Position numbers and translations under genes: made by a program
The notes under the pieces: generated by a model
What the model was told of the DNA's origin: nothing
The model's database searches: none
What the model saw: the letters and a program-made list of their open reading frames with translations, nothing else
Source of the DNA: a virus
Reading direction: 5' to 3' (one strand)
Length of the DNA stretch: 33,037 nucleotides
Virus record (IMG/VR): IMGVR_UViG_3300005523_000006
Span: 1 to 33,037 of that record
Shown here: positions 765-20,700 of the stretch, piece by piece
Position numbering within the stretch: the stretch's first letter is position 1
How the letters are laid out: every line of letters begins with the position of its first letter

Positions 765-2396
765 CTATTTAACTCCTATCACACATTCTGTTAATGTTGT
801 TTCTTTATTATATTTATGCTTAATTAGCCTTCCTATGGTGTTAAAAGTGGTACATTCGTCAATTTCTGCAACTCTAGCCTCGCCATTTCCTGCTGAAACT
901 ACACGATCACCTGCTTTACCAGTACCCTTTAATTTTACCAAAACACGTCCTTTGAGTGCTATCATAGGATGTGTGTCATTGTTGCCTGCTGATGCATTCA
1001 TTAAAAACGCTGGGCTCTCGCTCACGACCCCAAATACTTGATCACACAACTCTTCTTTACATTTTGTAACCTCTGCGTGACCTCCTAGCATTACAACATC
1101 ACCAACTTCTGTCTCACAGTCTGCTTCGTATCTCTCTGCCAAGTCTGCGTACATGGCCGTTGATGCCGTTGCGTGTACTACGTTTGCTCTTATATCCACC
1201 AATGTTGCCGCTGATGGAAATAAATCTTGATCTGATGCAGATTTAAACGCTGTCCAGGCACCACCTGCGTTACCGTGTACGGTTGTGCCATCATCTGCAA
1301 AAGTTTCGTCCCATACCCAAAATAAATCTTGTTCTGTTGCTGTTGATGCCTCACCTCTGTTTACTTTTAATCCTGAGTATTTTGGCATTCCTGCATTATT
1401 GGATATGTTTCTGTTTAATTCTATAATGTTGTCTTCGACGGATAATGTTGTGGTGTTCATCACGGTGTTCGAACCATCAACTGTCAAATCTCCAACTCTA
1501 AGGTGTTCAATTCTTCCTGTCGAACCTTTAATTCTTAATGCCTCTTTTGTTGTACCACCATCATTTACCGTAAAAATAATATCTTTGTCTTGTGTAGTTT
1601 GTGCGATCGTAAAATCATCACTCGATAATGACATAGTCACATCTGAACCAGCACCAATTGTTAAACCTGTGTCATTTAAAATACCCAACGATCCAGTTGA
1701 AGTATCTGCAGAGTCTGATCTCAAATAGTTCGCCGCCGCAACTCCACCTAATGAATCCGAATTTGTTGCAGTTCCTCTGAATTTGTTTGCCGCTACTGCC
1801 GTTGAAAGTGTAATACCTTGTGCGACTGTGGCAAATCCTGCTGTTATCAATGCGGCACCTGTCGTTTCAGTTGAACTTGGAGTAAATGCTATGTTGGATA
1901 CTACACCTACCACAGCATCGTTGGCTATCATTTTTAAAATTGTTCTTGTAACACCTGTGTTATCCTCGACTGAATCAGTTGTGAAAACTGTTTGTCCTGA
2001 ACCTGCAACTGTTGTTGGTCCAATTAATGTCCATGCTGTTCCGCTGTAAACATATAACTGAGTATTGGCTGTGTCAAACCACATATCTCCAAGCACTGCA
2101 TTTGTTGGAGCAGTAGTTGAGTTAGTAGTTGAACCTACTGGTTTAAATTTTGAACCTGTGTAAACATTAATTTGGTTGTTAGTTTTGTCATACCAAAGTT
2201 GACCTTGAATTTTGTTATTCGGAGCAGATGTATTATTAAAATTTTCTAAAAGTTTAACAAGGTTTTCGTTAAGTTTTTCACCAAAACCCGCATAACCTTT
2301 TCCTATAAGTGTAAGGTCCGTAGTTGCGACATCAATTGTGCCGTCTGCGAGGCTAACCAATAAGGTTCCGAATGTGTTGTTAATCTTGTACGCCAT
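765..2396 (-). CDS. Tail-fibre-like virion protein, paralogue C (543 aa)
   Basis: This is one of three paralogous fibre-like proteins in the window (the others are 5717-7111 and 7122-8630). The N-terminal ~135 residues share the family pattern: INN start, LTLIGKGYAGFGEKLNEN, KLLENFNNTSAP, GQLWYD, GDMWFDT and LYVYSGTAWTLIGP. A middle segment has SDSLGGVAAANYLRS, which resembles tail-fibre repeat modules, followed by IIFTVNDGGTTKEAL. The last ~130 residues (from MYADLAERYEAD, then GDVVMLGG, VVSESPAFLMN and ALKGRV) match the C-terminal domain of paralogue A. They faintly resemble the phage Peptidase_G2-type autoproteolytic chaperone domain. The ATG at 2396 matches the starts of its paralogues but has no clear Shine-Dalgarno site. 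It is probably a trimeric fibre or host-contact protein; the exact role is unknown. Confidence 0.8.
   Translation of the reverse strand: MAYKINNTFGTLLVSLADGTIDVATTDLTLIGKGYAGFGEKLNENLVKLLENFNNTSAPNNKIQGQLWYDKTNNQINVYTGSKFKPVGSTTNSTTAPTNAVLGDMWFDTANTQLYVYSGTAWTLIGPTTVAGSGQTVFTTDSVEDNTGVTRTILKMIANDAVVGVVSNIAFTPSSTETTGAALITAGFATVAQGITLSTAVAANKFRGTATNSDSLGGVAAANYLRSDSADTSTGSLGILNDTGLTIGAGSDVTMSLSSDDFTIAQTTQDKDIIFTVNDGGTTKEALRIKGSTGRIEHLRVGDLTVDGSNTVMNTTTLSVEDNIIELNRNISNNAGMPKYSGLKVNRGEASTATEQDLFWVWDETFADDGTTVHGNAGGAWTAFKSASDQDLFPSAATLVDIRANVVHATASTAMYADLAERYEADCETEVGDVVMLGGHAEVTKCKEELCDQVFGVVSESPAFLMNASAGNNDTHPMIALKGRVLVKLKGTGKAGDRVVSAGNGEARVAEIDECTTFNTIGRLIKHKYNKETTLTECVIGVK
811..818 (-). promoter_or_regulatory. 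Possible late promoter box CATAAATA
   Basis: On the minus strand this reads CATAAATA, one base from the T4 late consensus TATAAATA. It sits about 50 bases upstream of the partial structural gene at 760, inside the C-terminal codons (His-Lys-Tyr) of the preceding gene. The spacing would leave a normal leader containing the AGGAG site. Because it is embedded in coding sequence, chance is a real alternative. Confidence 0.35.
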
Positions 2397-2599: not shown

Positions 2600-3064
2600 T
2601 TATTTATTAGTCTTGTTGTGTTGCTCATCATCTGAAATCCAATGTAAATCTTTACTGTATTTTCCATCCAAATCACGCAAAAATGTGTGTACATTTGTTT
2701 CAGCAAGTACAAAATTATGATATTTTTCATACCTTTTGTGTAATTCTCTCTCTTTTGTTGCTGTATATACCAGTTTCATATCTTTAGATTTTGCGAGATC
2801 TATCAAAGCATCAATACATAATTTCAATGCTTTGTGTACTTGCCTTTTGTCCGCTTGTTTATCTGTGACTATCCATTCCATAAAAGCAAACTGTGTTCCT
2901 ACCCCTATATATAATCCACCAGCACAAATTGGTTTGCCGTCATACTCTATCATTATACCATCGGGTGGCAAACATTCTTTTGGTACAGTCCCGAACTCCC
3001 AATCTGTCCACCATTGCACCAATGTGCTATAATCTTGTTCTATGTTCCAATTTCTAGTTTGCAT
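2600..3064 (-). CDS. GNAT-like N-acyltransferase (154 aa)
   Basis: I choose ATG 3064, which lies inside the last codons of the dehydrogenase gene (11-base overlap). An upstream in-frame ATG at 3106 would add 14 residues and a longer overlap. The protein has the layout of a small GCN5-type acetyltransferase: IMIEYDGKPICAGGLYI (a beta-hairpin with small residues), then FAFMEWIVTDKQADKR (beta-4 and the acyl-CoA pyrophosphate loop region), a helix HKALKLCIDALIDLAKSK, and a final TKERELHKRYEKYHNFVLAE segment. The canonical Q/RxxGxG/A loop is not obvious, so cofactor binding is uncertain. It is the third of three coupled small enzymes set among fibre genes, suggesting modification of a tail protein or a surface molecule. 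Confidence 0.6.
   Translation of the reverse strand: MQTRNWNIEQDYSTLVQWWTDWEFGTVPKECLPPDGIMIEYDGKPICAGGLYIGVGTQFAFMEWIVTDKQADKRQVHKALKLCIDALIDLAKSKDMKLVYTATKERELHKRYEKYHNFVLAETNVHTFLRDLDGKYSKDLHWISDDEQHNKTNK
2601..2608 (-). promoter_or_regulatory. Late-promoter-like box AATAAATA before the 58-aa gene
   Basis: The minus strand reads AATAAATA, one mismatch from TATAAATA, 20 bases upstream of the 58-aa start. It overlaps the last codons and stop (AAT AAA TAA) of the acetyltransferase-like gene. The same octamer lies at three other gene junctions in this window. It could be a weak late promoter, or a by-product of AT-rich stop-codon context. Confidence 0.35.
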
Positions 3065-3638
3065 TTTTTTGTAAAACAATTTTATTAATGTTATATGATG
3101 ACTCAAAGCAATATCTCACTGCGTCTGCAACTTCTTCAGCCTTTAATTTAGGCAGTTCTTCCCACATACCTTTTATCATATCTGTATCTACAACATCAGG
3201 ACAGATGTCATACACTGATAAAGGCTTGTTGAATAATTCTTCTTGCAATTCACTTACGTATCTAATCAAATTTTCTTTATGCCAACAATACCAACCATAA
3301 TCAGCACTAATATTTTCCTCGTCTTTTCCTTGTGGTGTTCCGGAAGTGCTTGTAATCACTGCAACTTTTTTGTATTCATTATGGAAGCAACCATAAATCC
3401 TTTTCAATAATTCAAATTGTCCTCTGCCTGCATAGGCGTTTACAACAATCAAATAGCAGTCTTTAAGTTTTTCTATTATATCTTCTTGATTATTTTCGAT
3501 GTCATATCCGTTACTTCTACTCAAACCAATAACTTCGTAACCTTTCTTTTTGTACAGTTTTGTTATTGCTTTGCCTATACCTTTTGTATGACCTATTATG
3601 GCAATTCTATTTTTGTTTTTTCCTCGTCTCATATACAT
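3054..3638 (-). CDS. Short-chain dehydrogenase/reductase-like protein (194 aa)
   Basis: This is a compact Rossmann-fold enzyme of the SDR family. Visible family motifs are the nucleotide-binding loop GHTKGIG (residues 16-22), NAYAG (67-71, in place of NNAG), a serine-rich strand ITSTSG with the likely catalytic Ser (96-100), the catalytic YxxxK as Tyr117-Lys121, and CPDVVDTDM after it, the usual PG-T segment. All catalytic elements therefore look intact, although 194 residues is short for the family (commonly about 250). The start at 3638 overlaps the upstream dioxygenase gene by 32 bases; a second ATG lies six bases further in at 3632. Neither has a strong ribosome site, so translational coupling is likely. 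The substrate is unknown; it could be a sugar or lipid-like precursor or an amino-acid side chain. Confidence 0.8.
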   Translation of the reverse strand: MYMRRGKNKNRIAIIGHTKGIGKAITKLYKKKGYEVIGLSRSNGYDIENNQEDIIEKLKDCYLIVVNAYAGRGQFELLKRIYGCFHNEYKKVAVITSTSGTPQGKDEENISADYGWYCWHKENLIRYVSELQEELFNKPLSVYDICPDVVDTDMIKGMWEELPKLKAEEVADAVRYCFESSYNINKIVLQKNAN

Positions 3639-4278
3639 CCACTAAATTATCCAATCCCTCAAAACATTCTGAATAGTTTTGGTAATATTTTTCAAACTTT
3701 TCTTTAGTGTATAATGATTCCTTGTAAAAGTCAATTAATAAAGTAGTTCTTTCACCTGGATTACGATTAAATCCGTTGTGTAATTGCACGTCCGGTTGGA
3801 ACACATATGCTTCTCCAGTCTTCCATGTCATAAGTTCTTGTTTACGAGTATCTATATTCATAACATACATACCACTTTGATCACCACCACCGTCTTCCAA
3901 GCACATTTGATATCTCCAGCCGCCTTCTTTATCAGTATGATTACCAATTTTTGTATCGGGACCTACGGTCATTATTGCAACATTTGTTTTGTAGGGAAAC
4001 TTTCTAAGTATAGAGTACAGGATAGGATAATCATTGAAAGATTGTCCTTCATGATCTCCGGATTGAATTCCTAATGCTCTCCATTGACCGTGAACATAAT
4101 CTCCACTTTTATCATCAAAGTCATCTGGTAGTCCCCTCACACTATCTGAAAAGTCTTCCGGATCTAAAAATACTTTGTTAGGTTGTGAATCGAACTCATG
4201 TTTGATGTTTCGCCAGTGCTTGTCCAACTGCCTAAAACATTCGCCTTGTTGTCCGTGGTAAAAAGATTTATCAAGCAT
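3607..4278 (-). CDS. 2OG-Fe(II) dioxygenase, aspartyl/asparaginyl hydroxylase-like (223 aa)
   Basis: The protein carries a clear facial-triad pattern of a 2-oxoglutarate/iron dioxygenase: His114-x-Asp116 in GNHTDKEGGWRYQM, the distal His167 in QLHNGFN, and Arg177 in GERTTLLIDF placed to bind 2-oxoglutarate. The order and spacing resemble aspartyl/asparaginyl beta-hydroxylases, where the GEAYVFQP strand precedes the distal His. The active site looks complete. There is no signal peptide, so it would act in the host cytoplasm. The start ATG lies within the end of the Hint/polyglycine gene (8-base overlap), which implies coupled translation, and its own end overlaps the dehydrogenase gene. Dioxygenases are common in marine T4-like phages. 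Hydroxylation of a tail protein is an attractive but unproven function. Confidence 0.8.
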   Translation of the reverse strand: MLDKSFYHGQQGECFRQLDKHWRNIKHEFDSQPNKVFLDPEDFSDSVRGLPDDFDDKSGDYVHGQWRALGIQSGDHEGQSFNDYPILYSILRKFPYKTNVAIMTVGPDTKIGNHTDKEGGWRYQMCLEDGGGDQSGMYVMNIDTRKQELMTWKTGEAYVFQPDVQLHNGFNRNPGERTTLLIDFYKESLYTKEKFEKYYQNYSECFEGLDNLVDVYETRKKQK

Positions 4279-5710
4279 TTAGTATATTAACATTTTTATC
4301 ATGTATCTGTCTATCATGATCTTGCCAATTACTAAAAAATTGTTCGCCGTGGTTGGTTAATTCTTGTTGTTCACTTAATTCGAAGTAATCTGTGAATTCT
4401 ATACCTTCGATAATAATTCTTCTGTTTTCTGAACCAAACACATAAACTATTGCATCATCATTTCCTAGTGATACACCGTGTTTGCTGTTTTCAACTCTAG
4501 TCCATTTGCCATCTTCTTTGACCATGTGTGTGCCTGAAACTTGAACACCTTTGTATTCATATAAATTATCTATTAAGAATTTACCAGTTGCAAATACTTT
4601 GCCACCAACTGCTACTTCATCACCAATATCTACAAGTTCAACTGCTTTTTGTGATCCATCAGCCATAGTAACCAAAGTGCCTGCTATGAAACAACCACCA
4701 CCGCCTGATCCTCCTGAAGCACCACTAACACCTGAAGCATTTCCAAATCCATTTGATGTTGATGTAAAATTAATTCCTGTGTTAAACATGGCTTTCCATG
4801 CTCCGCCAACTTTGATATATCCTGCTGTAATTTGTTTCCATGTACCTGATACTTTTGTAAACATATTGTTAATGCTTTTCCATGCACCTGATACTTTCAC
4901 GTTTGCTTGTACTCCTATATTGAATACAACAACTGCATAACCATTGGCTCCTGATCTTGCTGGACTTCCGCCTACTCCAACTCCTGACACGTAATAAGAT
5001 TCGCCTGTACCACCTGGCGTTGTACCTGAGGCTAACACACCTGTACCTCCAGTCTGCACTAAACTTAAACCTGAATACCCACCTTGACCTGTGTTGTCTC
5101 CAGAACCACCTGCACCACCTGATCCACCAACGAAGCCGCCGCCTCCGCCGCCTCCACCACCACCGTCTCCAGAGTGGTCTCCACCGTTTTGTCCTAGTGT
5201 TCCTGGTGTTTGTCCGTGTGCATTATTTGTGTTGATTCCTGGTGTTGAACCCGAGTGGTTACCTGCACCACCGCCACCACCACCGCCACCGGCTATGTGT
5301 ATGGCTGTACCATTAAGTGTTACGAGTGTGGCTCCTCCTCCAGCACCTCCACCACCTGAATATGGTCTTGGTCCTGCGTTACCGCCTCTTCCACCTGAAT
5401 AATCTGTTAAACTTTTTCCGTTTGTTCCACCCGGTGCACCACCTCCCGATGATCCACCTCCTCCACCGCCGCCTACTGCGACCTGTAAAGTGTTTCCTAT
5501 GTTACTTGCAATTGAAGCCGCACCTGCACCTGTGTAATTTAGATGTTTTAGGTGATGACCTCCCGTACCAGGTCCACCTGGGTTATCATCTGGACCACCA
5601 CCGCCTCCGGCGCCACCCCATAGATAAACGTCAATTGATTGTGTTCCTGGTGGAACAGTTACTTCTTGTACCGTACCTGTGTAAGAAAATTTATTTACTA
5701 TTGCGACCAT
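4271..5710 (-). CDS. Polyglycine adhesin-like protein with C-terminal Hint domain (479 aa)
   Basis: The start at 5710 has a good ribosome site (AAGGGAGG, 5722-5729) inside the end of fibre paralogue B. Residues 1-35 form a beta entry segment (FSYTGTVQEVTVPPGTQSI, then VYLWGGAGGGGG). Residues about 35-265 are dominated by long glycine runs separated by short strands, as in phage adhesins built of packed polyglycine-II helices. Residues 273-314 hold three exact 14-residue repeats around a GxWK core. A Hint (hedgehog/intein) domain follows: Cys340 in GCFIAGTLVTMADGS, GDEV, then a B-block-like SGTHMV with His395 and a later KWTRVEN, ending near IIIEGIEFTDYFE. There is no C-terminal Asn-Cys/Ser pair, so it is not a standard splicing intein. 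Self-cleavage at Cys340 or ester transfer is possible. It is translationally coupled to the dioxygenase gene. Confidence 0.8.
   Translation of the reverse strand: MVAIVNKFSYTGTVQEVTVPPGTQSIDVYLWGGAGGGGGPDDNPGGPGTGGHHLKHLNYTGAGAASIASNIGNTLQVAVGGGGGGGSSGGGAPGGTNGKSLTDYSGGRGGNAGPRPYSGGGGAGGGATLVTLNGTAIHIAGGGGGGGGAGNHSGSTPGINTNNAHGQTPGTLGQNGGDHSGDGGGGGGGGGGFVGGSGGAGGSGDNTGQGGYSGLSLVQTGGTGVLASGTTPGGTGESYYVSGVGVGGSPARSGANGYAVVVFNIGVQANVKVSGAWKSINNMFTKVSGTWKQITAGYIKVGGAWKAMFNTGINFTSTSNGFGNASGVSGASGGSGGGGCFIAGTLVTMADGSQKAVELVDIGDEVAVGGKVFATGKFLIDNLYEYKGVQVSGTHMVKEDGKWTRVENSKHGVSLGNDDAIVYVFGSENRRIIIEGIEFTDYFELSEQQELTNHGEQFFSNWQDHDRQIHDKNVNILNA
4769..4894 (-). repeat. Three tandem 14-residue GxWK repeats
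   Basis: Inside the polyglycine/Hint protein, residues 273-314 repeat with an exact 14-residue period: VSGAWKSINNMFTK, VSGTWKQITAGYIK, VGGAWKAMFNTGIN. The Trp-Lys pair and the Gly two residues before it are invariant. The repeats separate the glycine-rich part from the Hint domain and probably form a small beta-structured stalk or binding module. Confidence 0.85.
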
Positions 5711-5716
5711 AAAGGA

Positions 5717-7111
5717 TTACGCCTCCCTTACGAACCAAATATCTCCGTCGTTTCCGTCGCCCCCAGTTGGATTAGACGTTGAAACGTACTTCTCAGAGCC
5801 ATTCCAAAATGCTCCGTACGCCGACACCTGTCCAATTGTTGGAACCGAAGTGCTTGATGTCATTGAAGTTGTTATTGCTGAACCAACTGCCGCTAAATTC
5901 ATGTTTGTCACTGTAACTAAACCAGCCGCTGTTGTTTTTAATACTTTTTCTTTGTTAGCATTTCCGTCTACTACTGCATCTGCCAATCTAATAATTTGTG
6001 AATATGAATTGTTTTCACCCGCTGTCCAATGATTTTCTGATACATCATAAAACAATCTTGCGTCATTTGTATCTGAAGTTTCTACTATTAAACCAGCATC
6101 TGCTTCACTATTACCTGCATTTACTTTTAAGAAAGTGTCTGAGTGTTGTACAATGTCTGATGATGTGTAATTGTAAGCACCGCTTACGTTTAGGTTACCA
6201 GTGATTGTAACATCACCGCTGATGTCAACTCCACCATCTGCACCTGTTAATTGTAAAGGAGTTTTTGTAACTCCGCCATCATTTACTGTAAATTTTAAAT
6301 CTTTGTCCTGTGATGTTTGTGCAACTGTTACATCGTTGCTGGAAACTGTTATTGATAGTTCTTGTGCATCACCAATTATTACACCTGAATCTGTGTCTAC
6401 TGTGATAGAACCTGTTGTTACATCAGACGCATCTGCTCTTAAAAAGTTACCACCTGCAATAACTGTGCCTGATGGATTCGTTGTTGTAGATACATCAATG
6501 TTTGTTGCCTGTGTGTTTGTACCATCAAACACTGCACCTATTGTTGAATTTAATGTTAAACCTGATTTGATTTCAGCAAAACCTGTTTGTGTTACACTTG
6601 GTGTGAACGTCTCTTTTGAAAGTATTGCAACTCTTGTGTTGCCTGCATACATCGAACTTACAACTTTATTACCACCTGAACTTGCAAGTGTTTCTATCTT
6701 CCAACCTGATAATGTTTGTCCTGATGTGTATACCGGACCTATCAAGTGCCATGCTGAACCTGTGTAAACATAAACTTGATCAGTTCCTGTTTCATGCCAT
6801 AAATCACCCGCTGTTGGTGATGTTGGCTGTCCTGCTGATGAATTTGCTCCGCCTGCCGGTTCAAATGCTGAACCATCATAAACTTTTAATTGTCCTGTGT
6901 TTGTGTCGAACCACAACTCACCTCTTAAAGGCGCCGTTGGTGCTGATGTTCCCGCTGAATTTTCTAATAGTTTTATTTGGTTTTCATTAAGCAATTCACC
7001 AAAATTAGATCTGCTCTTTCCGAAAAGAGTTAAACTGGTAGTATTATCAATATTACCGTCTTGGATCGTTGCAATTACTGTTCCGTCTGTTTTGTTTATT
7101 GTGTATGGCAT
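5717..7111 (-). CDS. Tail-fibre-like virion protein, paralogue B (464 aa)
   Basis: The start is set at ATG 7111 (MPYTINKTDG) because it matches the starts of both paralogues (MAYTVNKSNN, MAYKINNTFG) and leaves a 10-base gap to the upstream stop; an in-frame ATG at 7141 would overlap the upstream gene. The N-terminal family domain is clear: TSLTLFGKSRSNFGE, LLENSAGTSAP, GELWFDT, LKVYDGSAFEP, GDLWHETG and VYVYTGSAWHLIGP. The middle has GNFLRADASDVTTGS and KFTVNDGGVTKTPL. Unlike paralogues A and C it lacks the C-terminal YADLAE domain. It ends instead in a separate region (STSVPTIGQVSAYGAFWNG, then GDGNDGDIWFVREA). It is probably a tail fibre or host-contact protein of the same family with an exchanged tip. 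Confidence 0.8.
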   Translation of the reverse strand: MPYTINKTDGTVIATIQDGNIDNTTSLTLFGKSRSNFGELLNENQIKLLENSAGTSAPTAPLRGELWFDTNTGQLKVYDGSAFEPAGGANSSAGQPTSPTAGDLWHETGTDQVYVYTGSAWHLIGPVYTSGQTLSGWKIETLASSGGNKVVSSMYAGNTRVAILSKETFTPSVTQTGFAEIKSGLTLNSTIGAVFDGTNTQATNIDVSTTTNPSGTVIAGGNFLRADASDVTTGSITVDTDSGVIIGDAQELSITVSSNDVTVAQTSQDKDLKFTVNDGGVTKTPLQLTGADGGVDISGDVTITGNLNVSGAYNYTSSDIVQHSDTFLKVNAGNSEADAGLIVETSDTNDARLFYDVSENHWTAGENNSYSQIIRLADAVVDGNANKEKVLKTTAAGLVTVTNMNLAAVGSAITTSMTSSTSVPTIGQVSAYGAFWNGSEKYVSTSNPTGGDGNDGDIWFVREA

Positions 7112-7118
7112 TTGCTTA

Positions 7119-7126
7119 TATTTATT
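7119..7126 (-). promoter_or_regulatory. Late-promoter-like box AATAAATA before paralogue B
   Basis: The minus strand reads AATAAATA, ending seven bases before the ATG at 7111 and including the TAA stop of paralogue A. If it were a late promoter, transcription would begin almost at the start codon. The same element at the same spacing precedes gp25 and the 242-aa gene, so it may serve translation instead. Confidence 0.3.
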
Positions 7127-8630
7127 GTCTTCCAGCCACAATATTAATTGTGCCTATTTCTGTTGAATTATACTCCTCTAGTGCTTTTCCTATTACTGTT
7201 CCTACTTTAGGATCATTTCCTTTTCTTGCAACACCAGGATGTTGTGAATGTGTTACAAGCATATCACCTTTGTTTATAGTTCCTACTACTTTACATGGTA
7301 CTTTTCCTTGTAACGCTACCGCTTGTCCTGTTGCTTCTGAATTCATTAAGTACGCTGGATTCTCTGATATTACACCCGCTACTCTTGTGTCTGCACCCAT
7401 ACTCGAAACTGTTATTTCTTTTTCTCCGCCGAATATAACAACTGTTCCAACTTCATACTCTGCATCAGATTCATATATCTCTGCCAAGTCAGCGTATTGA
7501 GCCGATGTTGCTTTTGCATATACAGTGTTATATTTTTTAGAACTTGAACCTATATCGTAACTTGTTGTTGCATCAGGCAAAATATTTTTTGAGGTTAAAG
7601 TTCCGCCCATTGCCAATGTTCCTAAAGAACTTGCTCCAGTTCCTGAAATATTACCTGTGACGTCACCTGTCAATGCACCAGTAACTGCTGTTTCAATATT
7701 TGTTGCTTTTATCGTTCCGTTGACATCTACTGTTGCAGACGGTGTTGTTGTTCCAATACCTACTCTAGCATTTGCACCATCTAATGTCATTACAGTTTTT
7801 GTTACACCGCCGTCATTTACTTTGAAAGTTATGTCTGTGTCTGCAATAGTGTTTGATATGTTTGCACCTGTACCGTCAACTGTGATTGTAAGATCCGAGT
7901 CTGCACCAACAATAACACCACCATCGTTTGCAACTGATAAAGTTCCTGATGTTGTGTCATTGGCGTTTGATCTTAGATAATTTGCCGCCGCAACTCCGCC
8001 TAATGAATCTGAGTCACTGGCAGTACCCTGAAATTTGTTTCCTGAAATTGCTGTAGATAAAGTAATACCTTTTTTGATTGTTGCAAATCCTGTGATGCTT
8101 GATTTAGGAGTAAATTCATCCTCTGAAATAATTGCAATAAGGTTACCGTCATTAAACCATTTTGTAATATTTTGATTTGCATCTGATGAATCTAAAATAG
8201 TATCGTAGGTAAATCCGTTTGTTGTACCTGTTGATGAAGGTGGACCTACTAAAACACTTGAACTTCCGTTATAAAAGTAAAGTTGTCCAGTATCAGAATC
8301 AATCCACATATCACCTTGTGATAATCCTGATGGCGCTGTTGCCTGGTATGGTGCACTACCTCCTGCTGTTTGGAATGCAGTTCCGTTGTAAACTTTTAAT
8401 TTTCCGTTGGTCGAATCCCACCATAGTTGCCCTTCGATAGGTTTTGTTGGTTGTGTCGTATTTGAAAAGTTTTCTAATAAGTGTAAAAAGTTTTCTGCAA
8501 TACTTTCACCGTAACCTGCATACCCTTTTCCAATAAAACTTAAATCAGTTTGAGAGTTAACAACTCCGTCCTGAACTGTGTATTGGTTTGGCGATGCCGA
8601 ATTGTTACTTTTGTTTACTGTGTATGCCAT
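7122..8630 (-). CDS. Tail-fibre-like virion protein, paralogue A (502 aa)
   Basis: This is the first of the three fibre paralogues in transcription order, three bases after the 242-aa virion gene. The shared N-terminal domain reads QTDLSFIGKGYAGYGESIAEN, LLENFSNTTQPTKPIEGQLW, LKVYNGTAFQ, GDMWIDSDTGQLYFYNGSS. The middle has GITLSTAISGNKFQGTA and DSLGGVAAANYLRSNAND, which are nearly identical in paralogue C, then a VNDGGVTKT strand and VGIGTTTPSATVDVNGTI, a motif common in virion proteins with C-terminal chaperone domains. The C-terminal domain starts near QYADLAEIYESD and continues GTVVIFGG, GVISENPAYLMN, VALQGKVPCKVVG and INKGDMLVT. I infer a trimeric fibre with a possible autochaperone tip. 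No clear Shine-Dalgarno site is seen. Confidence 0.8.
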   Translation of the reverse strand: MAYTVNKSNNSASPNQYTVQDGVVNSQTDLSFIGKGYAGYGESIAENFLHLLENFSNTTQPTKPIEGQLWWDSTNGKLKVYNGTAFQTAGGSAPYQATAPSGLSQGDMWIDSDTGQLYFYNGSSSVLVGPPSSTGTTNGFTYDTILDSSDANQNITKWFNDGNLIAIISEDEFTPKSSITGFATIKKGITLSTAISGNKFQGTASDSDSLGGVAAANYLRSNANDTTSGTLSVANDGGVIVGADSDLTITVDGTGANISNTIADTDITFKVNDGGVTKTVMTLDGANARVGIGTTTPSATVDVNGTIKATNIETAVTGALTGDVTGNISGTGASSLGTLAMGGTLTSKNILPDATTSYDIGSSSKKYNTVYAKATSAQYADLAEIYESDAEYEVGTVVIFGGEKEITVSSMGADTRVAGVISENPAYLMNSEATGQAVALQGKVPCKVVGTINKGDMLVTHSQHPGVARKGNDPKVGTVIGKALEEYNSTEIGTINIVAGRQ

Positions 8631-9368: not shown

Positions 9369-9376
9369 TATTTATT
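9369..9376 (-). promoter_or_regulatory. Late-promoter-like box AATAAATA before the 242-aa gene
   Basis: The minus strand reads AATAAATA, six bases before the ATG at 9362, and includes the TAA stop of the giant gene. The placement is the same as at the gp25 start. It may be a late promoter giving a nearly leaderless transcript, or an A-rich translation-start context. Confidence 0.3.
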
Positions 9377-11720
9377 CAGGTGCATTTGTCGGCTCATCCG
9401 CTATGAATCTAGCCTGTTGAGTCGTAGAAGCCTGTAATCCTTTACCATTTGCTGGATTACCGTCTTTACCCGTGTACCAAACCTGTCCTTTCTTATGTAA
9501 GATTTTAACCTGTGTGCCAGATGCTGGAGCAGTGCTTAAAGTAACTGCTGTTGTCGATCCGTCCACAGAATAGTTAATAGTTGATCCATCCTCGCTAGTA
9601 AGCAACAATCGTTGGCCACCAATGAATATGTCTAACTCACTAGCAGAGGCTGGGGTTTGTGATAGTGCAAACGTCTGTGTACTGCCATCACCTGTGAAAG
9701 TGTTGGTGTGTACTGTGTCTGCATAAGGTATGGTTTGAGTACCGGACGCATCTACCACTTCAGCGCCTGATCCATGTGCCTTAATTCCTGTACCAAGTGT
9801 ACCACGTCTAAGTTGTCCTAAACGATTGTTTGTCTTGGTGAAATATTCAATTCTTTCTTTGTCGATAAAGATTACACCTGGTGCATTGGCTGTTATGTCA
9901 GGTGTGGATAATATGCTTCCATCTTTGACCACTATTGTTTTATCTCCATCAACTATATCTTGTGTTAATTCTGTTGTAGCATTTTTGTTAATACGTTTGT
10001 AGAAAGTTCTATTCAACATATCTTTGAATATTCTAAATCCTGTGGCTCCTGTTGCCGATTCCATAGCAAAATACAATACATCTAATCTATCTGAAGCAAC
10101 TATCGTTATGCCGTACACTGTGATTGTATTGCCACTTAACATGAAATCCTTACCTTGAATTAATTGTTGTCCATTCAACCATACATAAGTGTATGATGCG
10201 TTCAGTGGTTCAAATCTTAATTTAAATATTCCGTTAGTTCTTCCTTCTAAAACTTCTCTTCTATGTTTCATTCCAAGTGCATTATTGAATGTTGTGATTG
10301 AAAGTTTATCACCTGCTGTTAATGAATAAGGTGTTGTAATTCTGCTTGGAATTAAAATTACAGAAGTTGGATTAGAACCATCTATAAAATATTGATTATC
10401 AACTAATGTAGAAATACAAATAACATCTGAGGATGTCGGCACTGATTCCACAGTGAAAGTTATATTTTGATTTCCTATGTCAACATCATAATCAGCACCA
10501 TAGAATTGCGGAGTACCGTTTACAAATACTTCAACTTGATTTTGGTTAGTTATAGTTTTTGCCGGATCCACTGTTGAATCATCATCAAGTCCCGACACAA
10601 CTCCGTAAGTATATGTGCTTCCATCACCAATGTAATAAGTGTTGTCAGGTCCTCTTAACACCCTACCATTACATTCTACAGTTGTCAAACTAGAGAATGG
10701 TCCAATCGCCCCTGCAGGATAAGTCAAATCCATTCTTGTTGTAGAACCATCGTAAGTTAATTCTTCATTTCTAATACTTGCATAACTTCTTGTGCTAATG
10801 GCCGTTCTGGCAAAACCTGCCACTTGTATAAATGCGTTTGCCGCCGGAGCAGTATTGAATGTTACTTGCAATCTTTTCGCTACACTTTTTGTTGTAAATT
10901 GTGTGGTAGGTACACCGTCTACTGTAATGTAGATTTCAGATGCTGTTGAGTCGAGTGAGAAATCATCACTAGTAGCAGTGGTGTAAGTGACAGTGCTTCC
11001 ATCACCTGTGTATTGATCCAACACTCTATAATTTTCTCCACTTATTGCGAATACTTTTATTGTTACAACACTTAGATTTGCAGGCGCAGATCCAAAAGTA
11101 ATTGTTTTATTTTTTACATCTACTGTATAATGTGTTGTAAGTTTTTTCACAACTCCATCACAACTTACTGTTACTGAACCTAATGTGCCTGGTGTGTCAC
11201 CGATAGCAAACCTTACAGTCGATCCATCACCAATGTAATTGTTTTCGCTTATGAATGGTACACCAGATTCTGGTGAAGTATAAACTTTGATATCCACTGT
11301 GTCAAACATCTGTCCAGGAACTGTTTCTTCAGGTGCGTAACTTGTATCCGGACTAATAAAATCATCACCTTCTAATAATATATCACTAGGAGCATGACCT
11401 AAAGCACTTGTAAACAAACCTCCCTTGACTATCGAATCTAAAGTTCTATCGTCAGTCGGTGTTAGTACACCGTCTTCATCAAACGGAATAAATTCAACCA
11501 ATGTACCATCTGCTGGAGCAGAAGTTAATGTGACCGTTTTTGTAGTACCGTCGCCTCTGAAATGGTCAACTGTTGTACCTGAAGGATCTAAAACATTAAC
11601 TTTGGTACGTGTTTGATTAATTTTTGTATACACTTGATAAACTTTTGTACTATCAGGTGCTGTGCTGAATGTAAACTGCGTTGTAGAACCATCACCACTG
11701 AATGTTACAATGTTTGATGC
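9372..11720 (-). repeat. C-terminal GDGST module array of the giant protein
   Basis: The last ~780 residues contain repeated units that begin GDGST followed by alternating Thr/Phe strands and a SAPA or TAPA turn, for example GDGSTTQFTFSTAPDS, GDGSTVRFAIGDTP, GDGSTVTYTTATSD and GDGSTQTFALSQTPAS. The units are diverged at DNA level, using different Gly, Ser and Thr codons, so they are old protein repeats, not recent DNA duplications. Such modules are common in tail proteins of marine phages. The binding role is unknown. Confidence 0.7.
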
Positions 11721-14700
11721 TCCATAATTGTCCCATGGAAAATCGTACCAACCTGATCTATCCCAACCTTGATCTTGTGAGAATAATAATCCTGTCACCA
11801 TTGTTCCACCGTAATCAACACCTGTCATTACTTGTGATAGTTCATTTCCTGGCATACCAGATCCCGGCGTGTAGAAACCTTTAGTTCTATCTGCCGCAGT
11901 TAAACCTACTTCGTCTCCACGCACTTTGTAAACATTTCCAATGTTATCATCAAAATCTTTTGTCGAAGTAAAGGCACTTGTTGCTTTGTATAACTGATTG
12001 TTATGTCTGATTAGATCTCCATATGCAAAATATGTAGATGCTGTCCAATCTTTTACTCGTGAAGTACTTGATACTCTATCAAATTTAATTGTTGTATCAA
12101 AATCCCTTACGAGATCATTGTTAAGATTTGCGTATGCTTTTGCAGTGTTAGATGGAGTATTCCCATTTTTCAAACCGCCTGTCAAAATAACTGTTGGTGT
12201 TGTTGTGTAATTAGAACCTGTGTCAGTTAAAGTAATTTTTGTTACTTTACCTCCTTGAATTATTGCTGTTGCTTTTGCTGATGTAGTATTTGGAGCAACA
12301 TACATTTTGAATGTGCCTGACTTATTGCTTTGTGCATGATTAGTAGAACCTGTTGGCATATAGAATGTGCCTGATATATCATCAAACGTATGTGTATGTG
12401 CAGTTCCACTTCCGCCATTTTGTGAGTCATATATTTTTGCTTGTTGTTCGCTTGTGAACAATGGATAATAATATCCAAAACTACCCGATGTAGCACCGCT
12501 TGAACTTGTGCCTTGTATTTGGAATGGACCTGTACTGCCCACTGTGCCGCCTAATATTGTTACTTCTGGAGCAACCTCATATCCCGATCCTGCACTTGTA
12601 ATTGTAATTGAAGATACATATTTTTTATGATAATCATTCCACATCTGATGAGGATATTCCGTCAACTTGTCAGTGTCCACATCAACATTTAATGGTCTAA
12701 TTTTTTTAGTAGTTGTGTCGTAGAATGGCGGATTGTCAAAGTCACTAAACAAACCATCCTGTGTATCACTGCCAGAATATGTAAGTTTGTATTCCCTTAA
12801 TTTTGTATGGAATGGTTTAACTTCTTTGATGTAACTTTCAATCCAAGCATCTGTGCCAGTTTCATAACTTTTTCTCTGATCTAATTCTCTGACAGAGTTT
12901 TTAACATTTATAAAAGATGTTTTGAATACCCAATCAACATAAGTTTGCTCTGCAAGGACTTTTCTTAAACCAGTAAAGAATAAAGTGTTGTATTCACCAG
13001 CAAGATCGTTAATAAACAAGTCATCTCTCAATGCTGTCAAAATCATTCTCGTTTCTTTTGCAGGTTCTTGGTCAAAGAAATTTTCATCAAAAGTATCTTG
13101 GCCTGCGAATCCAGTTGCATCCTGTGAATAATCATAAAGTTTTGTTGATAATCTTATTGTACCGTTTTCAGTTCCGGTGTTTTCCCATCCTGATGTTGTT
13201 TTTGTAAACAATTTCCATCCACCCGTGTCAGCACTTGTTACTTTAACATTTTTGCCCGGTACTAAATCTAAACCATCTAATTCGTATTCGAAGGTAACTT
13301 GTTTATCAATTAGTGTTGTTTCACTATACCCTTCTTTGTACCAATCTGTGTAGTTCCAATAATTAGAAGTGTTATAAGTCTGTAATTTTGTTCTAGACCA
13401 TATAGATCCGTCCCAAGTGTATATTGCCCAAAAGTTGTTTGATGTTTCATCTGCTTTTACAAGATATTTTACAGTGCCCGATAGGTCTGCTGTATTGATA
13501 TATGTAAGTTCAGCATAAGTGTCAACTATTGCGTCCCATTCTAAACTTTGTGCAGTAGGCTCAGGTTCTTTCGAATCCAGATTGTCTAGGTTTATCTGTC
13601 CAACTAATTGACGTTGTTTTAGAACTGTATTTGCATAGTCAATGATTTCTTTTAGTGCACCAAATCGGTCAATGTACCAACTTTGCCTTGGACGTATGTT
13701 GTTTCCATATCTTTGATTCAATGGTAAGTCTAAATCTGGTACCTTGTCACCAGCACTATTTGAACCTATCAGTGAATCCCACCAACGTGTTTCGATTTGT
13801 GTTCCGGGTCTATAATCTTTATCTCCCTCTCTAGCAAGTTTCCATACTGAGTGTGAATCACCCTCATAGTCATTTGATCTTATATCAACACTTAGAATTA
13901 TATCACCATTGACTAAATTTGCCACGTTCCATAAAATAAATTTGTTTCTATTCGTAATTGCGTAATATTTTATATCATATCTTTTTGGATCTCGAATTAG
14001 ATTTGCAATATATGCCACTGTGTTATTTCTTTTGACAACACTGTCCATTGGCATACTTGCTTTGTCTTTGACCCAGTAGTAATAATAGTCTACAAATGTA
14101 TCAAGTCTAGAATCATACTGTTGTTTTACTGTGTATTTGTTAATGTCTAACACTGTTCCTGTTATAGTGCCACCTGGTGTGTTAGATTGTATGTTATATT
14201 GTTCTGGAGTTAAAAGAGATTCTGTCCATTCGTAAATGTCTATACTAGACCCAGGAAAAGTTTTACCCCAATTATTAATCTTGTATTCTTGAGAACCTTG
14301 TTCATACCATAACCATTTAACTTTTGATAGATCCCACCACACTTCACCTAAATGTTCTCTGCCCCATGGCGTTTTAGTATTGGCGTTATCTCCTGTATTG
14401 TATACTGCCGGATCCCAATTGGTTTTAATATTGATTTCTCTGTCTGCTATTCCTAGTATTCTTCCTTTGATAGGATCATACAGGTCATAATGGTCTCTTA
14501 TTTCTTTTGATCTATTATCGAATTCAAAAACTTGTCCTACTTTTGAAATATCAATTAACGGAGTTTCAGTAACAATATTCTTCCATGCATACTTGCCATT
14601 TTCTTTTAAATCAAAAATAGTTACAGTTCCGTCGTTCACTATTTTCGTACTTCCGTCTGCTCCTACATTACCGTCATCTTTGGGTGCTCCAACAAATACT

Positions 14701-17700
14701 GAATTGTCTATTGCACATACCCCTCTGCCAAAATCATCCATTGCTGAAACGTTATCAGTCATTAGTCTATCATCAATAACAAATTTTGTGTTGTACATAG
14801 TGGCTGTGTATGCTCCGCCTGATTGTATATTGTTATCAACCACTGATGTATCTTGTAAATCAAATGTTGTTGCTCCTGCATCAAAATTCATTTCTCGTGG
14901 ACTTGCAAAACTTTCAGCACCTATAACTAATCTATTTCCTGCAGGATTTATTGCAAGTGTAGTTCCAAACTTCATATTAGTTTGTGAGTCTGGTGCATTA
15001 ACAGTTTGTTGTAATGTGTAAGTGTTTGTGGAACCGTCTGCATTCCATTTGTAATAATAAATTGCTCCAGCATCTGCTTGGTCTGATTTATCAACACCTG
15101 GAGCACCTATTATTAAAGTGTTTCCATCTTTGCTCATTGCAATCGAGTCACCAAATGCAGTGTTAGCCGTTGAACCATCTGATGTTACACCTGTAAGTGT
15201 TTGAGTTAGAGTAAATGTTGTTGCTGAACTTCCGTCTGCTCCAGATCTTACAAATATTTCTACCTTGCCTGCATTTCCTGGTGCTAATGAACTTACTGCA
15301 AGTACATCGCCGTTATCGTTGGCTTGTATTCTGTGTCCAAATCTTTGTCCGCTACCACCTGCTGGTGCTTCTAGTGTGTAATCTTTTGTCCATCTGTCAT
15401 ATGTTGAACCGTCTGATCCTACTCCCCAAGTGTACACATAGACCCTACCTTTATCACTGCTGTGTCCTGGTGCTGATACAAACAAATATTTTTGTGCTGT
15501 ATCTCTTGTAGAACTTGTGCCAGACTCTGTAATTTTATGTGCCCAACCAAAATTCTGTGAGGCCGCATCTACTGGCGGTAAAAGTGTTGACAATGTTCCG
15601 TATTTGAATGTGCTTGGGTTCCAAACAAAAGTTTTTATTAAACCAGCATCTGCAAATCTTGTGCTACCATCTGATCCTAATGAATTTGTGTACGGTCCAC
15701 CTGCAACAACAAAGTTTTCATCTGTACTCATCGACAGAGATTCTCCTAATTTTCCTGTGGAATCATTTCCAGCAGTAGTTGTGATTGTTGACTGCGTTTC
15801 AAACACACTGCCTGATGTTGCTTCTCTTCTAAATAAGAAATTAATTTTTCCTTGCCCGTCACCAGGAGATGATACAACTACTGTTCTTCCATCATTCCTA
15901 GCAACAATTTGTTGTCCAAAGTTTTGTTCCGCTGTTGAACTATCAGGCGATAACTGAACTTTTATATTGTATGGATCTTGTTTTTGATATACTCTCCATA
16001 AACCTGAATGATCAGCATCAGTCCAAATTCTGTCACCAGTATATCCTACCGCAGGTTTTTCATCTTGATAATCACTGTATTTTAACAAATCATTTACATT
16101 ATCTATTGAATTAAATCTTACCGAAATAAATTTATAAACATTTCCAAAAGAATCTGCTGTGGATTCATCTGAAACATTTTCTACAAATGGAGTGTTTAAG
16201 GCAAAATCTATCACAATCGTTTTGTGATCTACAACAGAAAATACTTCGTATACTCCATTTAAGGACGGAGTTTTTGCGTTTGTTATTGCAAAATAGTCTG
16301 CTAAACTTGTTGTTGTTCCTGCTGATAGGCCATGTGAATCAGTAAATGTAATTTCTAATTGTGTAGCATCGTTAATTCTTTGTAAATTTTTAATTTTGTA
16401 ATCTTGATTCGTAAGTCTATACACGTCCCAATCATTGTTAGATTTGTTTGCTACCCATATCAATTCATTTTGCGTAACTTTAGTAACATCTAGTTTCAAT
16501 AGATCCACTTCATTAAATGCTGTGTGGTGCACGTGTTCAACTTGTGGATATCCCGCAGTTTTGTAAACCTGTGCATGGTCTCTTGTGACTCCTTCTTTTG
16601 TGTAGTCTAATCTGCTAAAAGTTTTTGATGCATCATAATCTACAGGCTTGTAGAACATATCGCTTTTAACTATTGCATCTGATCTAGCATATTCAACTGT
16701 TTCATTGGAAGTGTTTAATAATTCAAAACTGTTTGGATTTGCTGTAATCTTATCGTCATCTAAACGTATTTGGATATTTTCAATCCTATCAACGTTTCCA
16801 AATTGTCCTGTTTTCAACATCCATTCTGGATATAAATCAAGACTAATGTCTTGTTCTTCATATTTGGCTTTAAGTAATCTATCTATTGCGTTTTTTGTAC
16901 CTTTTTCTCTGATATATCCTTGATAAAATTTATACTGAGATACATCATTTACAAAAAGATTTTCTAAATAATCTCTAGATTGATAACCAATAAGTCTTTG
17001 TGCTAACTTCTGCTGAGATTCATCAAAGTTGTTTGTTTCTAAATTATAAAAATCATTAAACTGTGATATCTTATAATCAAAGTTTGGTATTAATTGTGCT
17101 CTTGGTTTAGCATTTTTCAATATCCAGTTTGCGTTATCAAATTTGTTACCCGATCCATGATTAATTTTTGCAACGTAAAACTTGCCTTGATATTCTACGC
17201 TGTCACCTATCTTGTAATCCGTGTTTGCTGTCCAGTATGTAACGTTTGCCGAATCAAACATAAAACCAGGAGCATAGTAATCGCCATTCCATCCGCCTGT
17301 TTTCCAACCTACAACTTTTAATCTTTGCTGTCTAAAACCTGTAGTAGGTTCATGTATAATATCTGCAAACACTGTTTTATTATCAAAAATAATAATGTGT
17401 TCTTTTTGAACGGTATTCAATATTATATTGTATAGTCCAGTGTTTTCATCTTTGATTTCAATATCAAAAGTTTTACCTATTCTTTTTGTTGATACTTGTC
17501 TTATTGGAATTTTTCTTCCACCTGCATCTAGTAATGAATAGTCACCTGCTAAATTTCTAAGTTTGCCAACAATCGAATTCTCTGTATCTAATTCAAAACC
17601 TTGTGCGGCAGGTGAAACTGTAATTGCAGATCCAGGTGCCCATTCTTGCGTAGTCCAAAATAAAAATTCTTTTACAGCGTTTTGCCAATTTAATGTTTCT

Positions 17701-20700
17701 TTGATTTCATTTGAGTACTTGTTAAATTTAAATCCTTGCTCTTCTAAATAAGATCCATAACCTAAAAGAAAGTCTGCAACTTCCTGAATTGTATCGAAAA
17801 TGTAACCGTAAGGTATTGTTTGAACAGTATCTTTAAAGTCATTGTAAGTTACAACCTCTACAGATCCTTCTACTTTTAGTTTGTTACCAATTGATGTTTT
17901 AACAGGATATTTAAATTTGAAATATGGTTTTACTGTTGAGTAACCTAATACCTTGTATCCACCAAGTAATGTCGAACCGTCATGTGAAACATCTGTGTTC
18001 TTTTCTATAAGCACACCGGAATACGTAAAAGACTGTACCGGATTAGATGTTCTAAATAATATTTTGTAGTTTTCATCTGGAATAAATTTAGATCCAGATG
18101 TTGATCCAGGTGATACAGAATCTGTCAATACTTTTAAATTATCTTTATCTGTAAAGCCACCTAATTTATACGTAAGTTGTGTTGTAATGTTTGACATTTT
18201 TTTATAATAAAAAGTGTCTGCATCTAAATTTTTTGAAATTAGATAGTTTACAATAATAGGTTGATAGCCTGCTGTGAGATATGTTGTTGTTTCTCCAGTT
18301 GCATTATCTGTGATTGTCTGCAAATGGTATTTTGCATTCTTAAGGCTTCTTCTAATCTCAGTTTCCGTGTCAATTTGGTTACCGGCAATGTTTGTTGACT
18401 GTCTAGACGGATCAAACATATTTGAAAAGAATCTTGCAGGTTGCGTTAAAGCCAATGTTTTCATCACAGTAAATGGATAAGCGGATGATCTTATCCAAGC
18501 AGTTTCTTGTGGTGCTTGGTCACCAAATTTCCAACTTGATCTTCTGCCTGGAATATCTAAAACATCTATCAATCCGGCGCTGATAGGATCTAATAAATTT
18601 CCTGAAGCATCGACTGGCAAATAGTTTTTAATATCTGGCTTGCCATATCTTCCTGTTTTTGTTGCAATAGCAGTCCACAATACATCGTTTCCTGATGTGT
18701 ATGGTGCAGTGCCATAAGTTTTATCCCAATTACTAGGTTTCTCAGAATGACCTAACATCTCCCATGGTCTGACATGGGGTGCATCTGTGTCATAGAAATA
18801 TTTGTATATCGCCCTCCAGTACCCCGGTAATTTTTCTTTTTTAATTCTGTCGGTACTGTTTGCATAATTGTATGTAAAAGGTGAACCTTCTGAAAACGTG
18901 GTGTTGTTAATGTATTGGACATTGTTACGTCCTGCCCATACATGGAAATCTGATGCCATCACATCATTTATTTCACCAAGTGTAAAATCTGTAGAAGTAA
19001 ACACACTTGGCATCACATCGGATATGTTGGTCAGTGTGCTATCATATTCAGTTTTAATATTGTTGTAAATTCTTCTTTCTAGTTCTATAATTAAATCATC
19101 TCTCTCATCACCGTATGCTTTAATAAATGATCCGTCATGCCTTCTAATCATGTTTGTTGTTGTAATGTACGTGTCATCTGAAATTATTTCTGGTTTGTAT
19201 TTCGGATACATACCTAGTTTTGTAGGAGAAGGTGGCAAGTAACTACCTTTTGTATCTGAGTAGTCCTTAATTACAATTTTATCTCCTTCTGCTAGTGATC
19301 TAGTAACTGTTATACTATCATCTACTGTACTGAATGTGTAATCTGTTCCTAATATTAAAAGTTCATCATTTAGATAAATGTAAACCGCTCTATTGCTTAA
19401 TTTTGTAATGTCGAATTGCGAATCAATAGCATAATCAGTTTGAGATGATCCTGCAACAGTATGTGTTCTTGTTGAAACATTTTCTCCCCAGCCTAACATA
19501 TCTTCGTAGAAGAATGGAAAAGAACTTGTTCTGCCTTGCGTGATTGCTGTGACAATTTCGTCTACTCTATCTCTTGCAACTCCTTCATATGCTGTATCTG
19601 TAGCATGAGTTAAAAATGCACTATACCATTTTTCGTATTCTAAATTAGCATAATCTATTGCTGAAACAAAATTAGATTCTCTATCTACCAAACTAAAAAT
19701 AGCCGGAATCAATGATCCCTCGTGTTGAAGTATTGTTCCACCTTTTAATTTTGCATCAGGTTTGTCTCTTAGATTAGATGTGCCAGGTATTTGGCCAGTT
19801 ACATCTTGATTTTTATCAAAGATATCTTGGACGTGTTTTAATATTTGTCCATATGTAAATGTACCTAATGATGCGTTTTCACTGTTTATAGATAAGTTTT
19901 CCGGCACTTCATAAATGCCTTTGTCTTTTATTTTTTTTGCAGAACTATATCCAGCAATTCTTATTTGATCACCTTCTGTTAATTCTTTATTAAATTTTAC
20001 ATATTTGTTTGTTGTTCCATCTACCAGTGTGTAATCAGTGTTTATTGTTTTTCTGACGCCATTTACTTTTACTGATACTTCTAAGTCAGTCAATGACGAA
20101 GAATCTTTATAAAAATCTATTGCAAATAATTGCGTTTCTGTAGAGTCAACTATGTATGTTCTAATAACTCTTTGTTTGCTTTTGCTTGTTCTTTTTACCC
20201 AAGGTCCCAGATAGTTTGTTACTTTTGCCAAAGTTGAATAGTGCAAATGTCCTGACGCTAATCTTTTGGATACCGTGCCTTTTCCTAGTTTGTAAGTGAA
20301 AGAATCGGACGTATGATCAGATTTGAAAACTATATTTCCTACATTATTAATTGTTTCATATTTTACTTTGATTCCAAGCACTGTATCTTCAACAGCAGAA
20401 TCGCTTGTAGCAAATGAAAATATTTCTGCTCCAGCAAAAGTAGAACTTGGATATTTTATCGGATCATCTAGATCTACGTGCTGTTCATCATGCAAATTAA
20501 ACAATGGCTGTTGATTTAATTTTGTTTTTTGTTGTGCATCCGCCCAACGGCTTGTACTATCATCGTAATATAAAGTTTTGCCTTGGTGTGCTGTACCAAA
20601 CTCTATAAAGATAGAATCGTTTGCAGAAGGTGTACCATCTGTTGCTTTGGTAAGCGAAATCACTTGCGTGGAATCTCCCGCTGTAACAAAAGCCACATCA

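Follow-up and report, generated by a model that had tools for sequence, protein, structure and literature searches.

Is a Hint domain at the end of a phage adhesin-like protein tied to the enzyme genes that overlap it and, if so, to which of them? The question was raised by a 33,037-nt viral fragment from IMG/VR (IMGVR_UViG_3300005523_000006, positions 1 to 33,037; the window), in which a gene for a Gly-rich protein with a C-terminal Hint domain is followed by genes for a 2-oxoglutarate (2OG)-Fe(II) dioxygenase, a short-chain dehydrogenase (SDR) and a GNAT-fold protein. An earlier, sequence-only reading of this cassette had taken the polyglycine protein as its defining partner and had proposed that the three enzymes act in sequence. 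Our analysis revealed a strict two-gene core consisting of a C-terminal Hint and a GNAT-fold gene, with the GNAT as the only invariant partner of the Hint.

The first probes, made with the dioxygenase and with the Hint, retrieved 24 and 29 loci, respectively, and the first direct Hint-GNAT pair was found on an unrelated 1716-aa DUF4815 protein (locus L047; loci are cited by L numbers). Three independent IMG/VR probes were used, and the Hint associations came mainly from probes in which the GNAT had no part. Scanning with only the Hint alignment gave 80 loci, and the GNAT was present in the cassette in all those with enough downstream DNA; scans with the GNAT alignment, with the second GNAT type and with divergent-Hint seeds all agreed with this pairing. 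Among 122 distinct Hint C-termini, 6 run off the contig and the others have the GNAT in cis without exception (116/116), with many of the counted sequences related and 54 pairs left after thinning to under 88% Hint identity. In the reverse direction, every type-a GNAT with upstream room sits after such a Hint, and a Hint lay upstream of type-b GNATs in 58 of 58 newly fetched loci with upstream room. The idea of the GNAT as a lone fibre-linked gene was consequently rejected for this subfamily, the wider family existing without an annotated Hint nearby. The cellular collection yielded a single locus with the cassette (L331), on a contig binned as Verrucomicrobia TMED56 that we take to be phage sequence; no such GNAT was found with the bacterial and archaeal Hints from the same probe (L332-L409).

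The composition of the 116 cassettes was as follows: 75 Hint-GNAT, 38 Hint-dioxygenase-SDR-GNAT, 2 Hint-dioxygenase-SDR-dioxygenase-GNAT and 1 Hint-dioxygenase-dioxygenase-GNAT, the split among the last three classes being approximate because the chain ends at the first GNAT and a weak second dioxygenase may be missed. An overlap of exactly 11 nt joins the two genes in 48 of the 75 direct pairs. Since the GNAT stands alone in 75 of 116 cassettes, three enzymes acting in sequence cannot be a general scheme, and an obligatory pathway of all four genes was rejected. The whole gene order did recur in close relatives, but the unit conserved across phage genomes is Hint plus GNAT, and the gene placed last in the sequence-only reading turned out to be the invariant partner.

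We favour the reading, to which we give about an even chance, that the pair is a two-component C-terminal processing module of virion proteins, with the GNAT working at the Hint junction and the dioxygenase and SDR tailoring the group involved. In the steps that we infer, the Hint, joined to the adhesin end through a Gly-rich linker, would attack the Gly339-Cys340 peptide bond by an N-to-S acyl shift, a thioester would form at this junction, and the virion protein would be freed with a C-terminal Gly. The co-translated GNAT would be a dedicated partner, and its most likely task at the junction would be to resolve the thioester or acylate a group placed there. In two phage lineages an inserted hydroxylase, usually with the SDR and sometimes with a second hydroxylase, would alter the junction group and leave a modified virion-protein C-terminus.

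The Hint sequence scores under Pfam cut-offs. It starts at Cys340 (Cys1), preceded by GGGG, and contains a block-B G-T-H395, the C-terminal motif FTDYF (residues 439-443) and a helical tail, with about 35 residues beyond FTDYF. Its AlphaFold2 (AF2) model (predicted local distance difference test, pLDDT, 74) gave as best Foldseek match BIL2 (6tmm, E = 9e-5), followed by Vint (8r2c, E = 8e-4) and Hedgehog (1at0, E = 5e-3), and DnaB inteins were also matched. The modelled fold, together with Cys1 and the block-B His, places the domain in the Hint superfamily. In an alignment of distinct Hints, for which FTDYF served as selection motif, Cys1 and the block-B His were invariant (141/141), and Gly immediately precedes Cys1 in 125 of 141. 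At the position of the Hedgehog TxxH motif, the His is invariant and the Thr is changed to Ser or Ala in this subfamily. The residues for the thioester chemistry assumed in the sequence-only reading are thus intact. The Thr-Asp of FTDYF occupies the position of the intein His-Asn (block G), which rules out a splicing intein or a type A BIL domain; lacking His-Asn, the Hint should be unable to splice, and its residue pattern is that of the N-terminal-cleavage type. Phage fibres often have a co-encoded downstream chaperone, and by this precedent the Hint could be inactive, with a role in structure or assembly, and the GNAT could be its chaperone, absent from the particle. We consider this very unlikely, as conservation of Cys1 and the block-B His throughout the set is not required of an inert domain. 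Tandem Hints were also observed, in which the FTDYF Hint is directly preceded by a fused canonical Hint ending VVHNK, placing two self-processing domains end to end (L092, L115, L133, L169, L170 and L188). In addition, a Thermoplasmata contig from a metagenome-assembled genome (L341:159-8930) encodes a protein of 2924 aa that matches the Hint profile very strongly (E = 2e-55) and is not accompanied by a GNAT of this type.

The window GNAT also falls below the Pfam cut-off by sequence. Its AF2 model (pLDDT 94) matched SACOL1063 (E = 7.5e-7) among 295 GNAT matches with E ≤ 0.001, so that the GNAT fold is predicted with confidence, and the GNAT-typical Tyr (Y112) is invariant. A search of PDB sequences with profiles gave no relative of either the GNAT or the dioxygenase. 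Several observations on this protein weigh against the reading that we favour. In the coenzyme A (CoA) loop, the consensus Q/R-x-x-G-x-G/A reads R-x-x-H-x-A or x-x-x-F-K-A; CoA use is not certain because the first Gly of this pyrophosphate loop is replaced by His or Phe. Because phage GNATs of the wider family that lack a Hint share the conserved Cys, this residue is not Hint-specific, and its candidacy as a special nucleophile is unsupported. The GNAT type (a or b) is swapped between sister Hints (b in L115 and a in L133, for example), the correlation between Hint and GNAT distances is modest (r 0.33), and the L316 GNAT is very divergent. The GNAT could act elsewhere, for instance as an assembly chaperone or on the host.

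The main rival to the favoured reading, which we hold to be somewhat unlikely, is that the GNAT transfers no acyl group: by binding the Hint, with CoA perhaps involved, it would trigger the N-to-S acyl shift and Gly-Cys cleavage, thereby timing release, the dioxygenase and SDR being separate add-ons. The degenerate CoA loop fits such a non-catalytic role, a cleavage cofactor would account for the co-translation and the strict co-occurrence, and GNAT-fold PanZ, which promotes an acyl shift in PanD, is a precedent. Chain 4cry_B, from the PanD-PanZ complex, is among the Foldseek matches of the GNAT model (E = 3.9e-5), but it is one of the 295 and not the best. Moreover, the invariant Y112 suggests catalysis, and activation leaves unexplained why a hydroxylase and an SDR are inserted exactly between Hint and GNAT in two clades.

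The nature of the carrier proteins bears on what the module acts upon. Gly-rich adhesins (the window, L136 and L170), DUF4815 tail proteins (L047, L179 and L261), long disordered-looking Pro/Gly-rich proteins (L094, L097, L101 and L114) and short Gly-zipper proteins (L119, L180 and L534) all end in such Hints; the L119 carrier sits between portal/connector and capsid genes, and that of L097 comes after a head-associated virion protein. The module is therefore attached to virion-associated proteins of several phage lineages, and, the carriers being unrelated, the common substrate is expected to be the Hint junction. Polyglycine as the defining partner was ruled out by this variety, the same Hint and GNAT being found on DUF4815, disordered and Gly-zipper proteins. 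In an alternative reading the enzymes would have residues of the fibres or the adhesin as substrates for hydroxylation, oxidation and acetylation, and the Hint would merely trim. In its favour, the PF05118 family includes protein Asp/Asn hydroxylases and the cassette genes lie among fibre genes, but unrelated carriers offer no common side-chain substrate, both carrier kinds also occur without dioxygenase and SDR, and the GNAT is tied to the Hint and not to fibres; we regard side-chain modification as unlikely. A separate observation on the short carriers is a glycine-zipper stretch (e.g. GGPIGGAIGGTIG) right before Cys1 in L534:2914-4014, L535:2418-3524 and L119:5245-6462, which resembles membrane-inserting phage ejection proteins.

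The two inserted enzymes belong to known families. The dioxygenase is a PF05118 member (E = 5e-10, 39.8 bits vs a cut-off of 22.6) with ligands H114-x-D116, H167 and R177, kept in 46 of 46 full-length relatives. The SDR is of the classical type (PF00106, E = 1e-7, 32 bits vs a cut-off of 26.6; Y117-x-x-x-K121), and its cofactor loop, Ser and YxxxK are invariant in the window clade. The Hints that bear the dioxygenase fall into two separate clades, that of the window and a distant one on DUF4815-type proteins (L209-L213 and L256-L262; dioxygenase identity 45-49%), and in each clade the insert is placed exactly between the Hint and the GNAT. Gly-rich carriers occur with the dioxygenase and SDR (the window) and without them (L136 and L170), as do DUF4815 carriers (L261 vs L047 and L179); since carriers of each type are also found without the insert, its presence follows the module and not the carrier. 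A possible elaboration, which we put forward tentatively, is modular ligation: the GNAT would pass the Hint thioester to a small amine or alcohol varied by the hydroxylase and SDR, giving exchangeable groups on the ends of adhesins, tail proteins and internal virion proteins, a prokaryotic counterpart of Hedgehog lipidation.

The claim that the enzymes are tied to the Hint gene stood for the GNAT and for the dioxygenase, which was not found outside Hint cassettes among relatives down to 45% identity, but not for the SDR, whose distant relatives (30-50%) occur without a Hint. In Hint-free clusters of large phages such relatives adjoin two PF05118 proteins and a TauD dioxygenase, which makes the SDR-hydroxylase pair a recurrent phage enzyme set. 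The cassette enzymes might then be small-molecule or host-directed ones that simply hitchhike in a late operon, with the Hint acting alone, given that the pair works elsewhere (L470 and L476). This is quite unlikely in our view, as the GNAT subfamily and the dioxygenase were not found apart from the Hint and the gene overlap is conserved. The Hint-free cluster itself (L470:3495-8526 and L476:3516-8538; domains read in L470 only) has overlapping or nearly adjoining genes for Thy1, a 205-aa unknown protein, an SDR, two PF05118 dioxygenases, a TauD dioxygenase and a weakly QueC/NAD-synthase-like protein, and looks like a small-molecule pathway. In hhalign comparisons the dioxygenase profile did not match the L470 PF05118 protein, nor did the GNAT profile match the 205-aa protein of L470.

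In the window itself, the open reading frame (ORF) coordinates (Table 1) bear out the overlaps of 8 nt (4271-4278), 32 nt (3607-3638) and 11 nt (3054-3064) that had been described, and the GNAT ORF begins with ATG. The Gly-rich N-terminus and Hint of the first gene, the intact dioxygenase and SDR motifs, the GNAT-like character of the last gene and the location between fibre genes were likewise confirmed. The order fibre-fibre-Hint-dioxygenase-SDR-GNAT-fibre is kept in close relatives wherever the contig is long enough, in support of an undescribed conserved cassette. Pairwise ratios of nonsynonymous to synonymous substitution rates (dN/dS, with dS unsaturated) were about 0.03-0.05 for the dioxygenase, 0.1 for the SDR, 0.09 for the GNAT and 0.14-0.22 for the Hint gene, values that are rough because dS was near saturation or saturated in many pairs. 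Conserved order and dN/dS far below 1 indicate that the cassette is not a chance arrangement. The largest gene of the window is a single 4285-aa ORF in the tail region (9372-22229, minus strand), and an HNH (PF01844) query of the window's own record gave no match.

Table 1. Positions and supporting evidence of the cassette and its flanking genes in the window.
Feature	Position	Strand	Evidence
Carrier of the Hint, 479 aa, with an adhesin-like Gly-rich N-terminus, repeats of V-x-V-x-G-x-W-K and the Hint at its C-terminus	4271..5710	-	ORF; phrog_25859 match, residues 268-311; Hom_end_hint match, residues 340-366
Hint domain (modelled fold), residues 340-479	4274..4693	-	Alignments; AF2 model and Foldseek; block-B His and Cys1 present in all 141 distinct relatives
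2OG-Fe(II) dioxygenase of 223 aa, similar to Asp/Asn beta-hydroxylases (PF05118); inserted between Hint and GNAT in some cassettes	3607..4278	-	Pfam match; metal and 2OG ligands in 46/46 full-length relatives
SDR of 194 aa with the cofactor motif GHTKGIG and intact Ser and YxxxK; inserted in some cassettes	3054..3638	-	Pfam match; motifs
GNAT-fold protein, 154 aa (phrog_17252), invariant Hint partner	2600..3064	-	AF2; Foldseek; gene order in all relatives with room
Fibre-like gene, upstream context of cassette	5717..7141	-	phrog_15511/14394 and Mtd_N-like matches; order conserved
Fibre-like gene, downstream context of cassette; weak Peptidase_G2 match	765..2396	-	Profile matches; conserved order

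Phage virion maturation is known to rely on proteases and intramolecular chaperones; the strict coupling of Hint and GNAT, seen in many marine phages and on virion proteins of several kinds, would add a new route by which such proteins are finished. The module is a testable two-protein system and indicates where in marine viral proteomes modified C-termini should be sought. Its parts come from known families, and the obligate Hint-GNAT pairing is, as far as checked, undescribed: no account of a phage Hint with a GNAT was found in the open-access literature (subscription papers and preprints being outside the search), and 50,697 cultured-phage records queried with the dioxygenase, SDR, Hint and type-b GNAT contained no close relative, only one weak Hint-start match in a Vibrio phage. 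In pelagimyophages an aspartyl/asparaginyl beta-hydroxylase is a core gene and host-recognition genes form a hypervariable cluster (PMC7029224); despite this, the window dioxygenase had no match in cultured phages. The nearest GNATs are those of phrog_17252 in Cellulophaga, Flavobacterium and Tenacibaculum phages, which belong to the same family (26-34% identity) and lie among structural genes but differ in having no annotated Hint beside them in the four regions read. Same-family GNATs were seen in L263, L264, L265 and L266, which are cultured Tenacibaculum, Flavobacterium and Cellulophaga phages and one environmental podovirus.

Among self-processing domains, type B BIL domains lack block G and cleave but do not splice (PMC4031507). 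The phage Hint shares with them the Hint fold, Cys1 and the missing block-G His-Asn, and differs in the strictly linked GNAT gene that follows, in its fusion to the virion-protein C-terminus and in its own signature ending FTDYF. In the Hedgehog Hog domain the thioester is open to an outside nucleophile (PMC9163320); the Gly-Cys junction, the Hint fold and the position of the domain at the protein end are alike, whereas in the phage protein no sterol-recognition region was seen, the block-B Thr is Ser or Ala, and the partner is a separate GNAT. If the GNAT does act on the Hint thioester, it would represent a new acyl-transfer chemistry of use in protein labelling. With CoA, the GNAT-fold protein PanZ binds the PanD zymogen, in which it promotes an N-to-O acyl shift at Gly24-Ser25 (PMC4410942, PMC3496974); as proposed for the phage module, a GNAT-fold protein is here paired with one in which an acyl shift takes place after Gly. 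The analogy is one of action only, as PanD is not a Hint and there is no comparable coupling of its gene to PanZ; were the phage GNAT an activator, the PanD-PanZ principle would be generalised.

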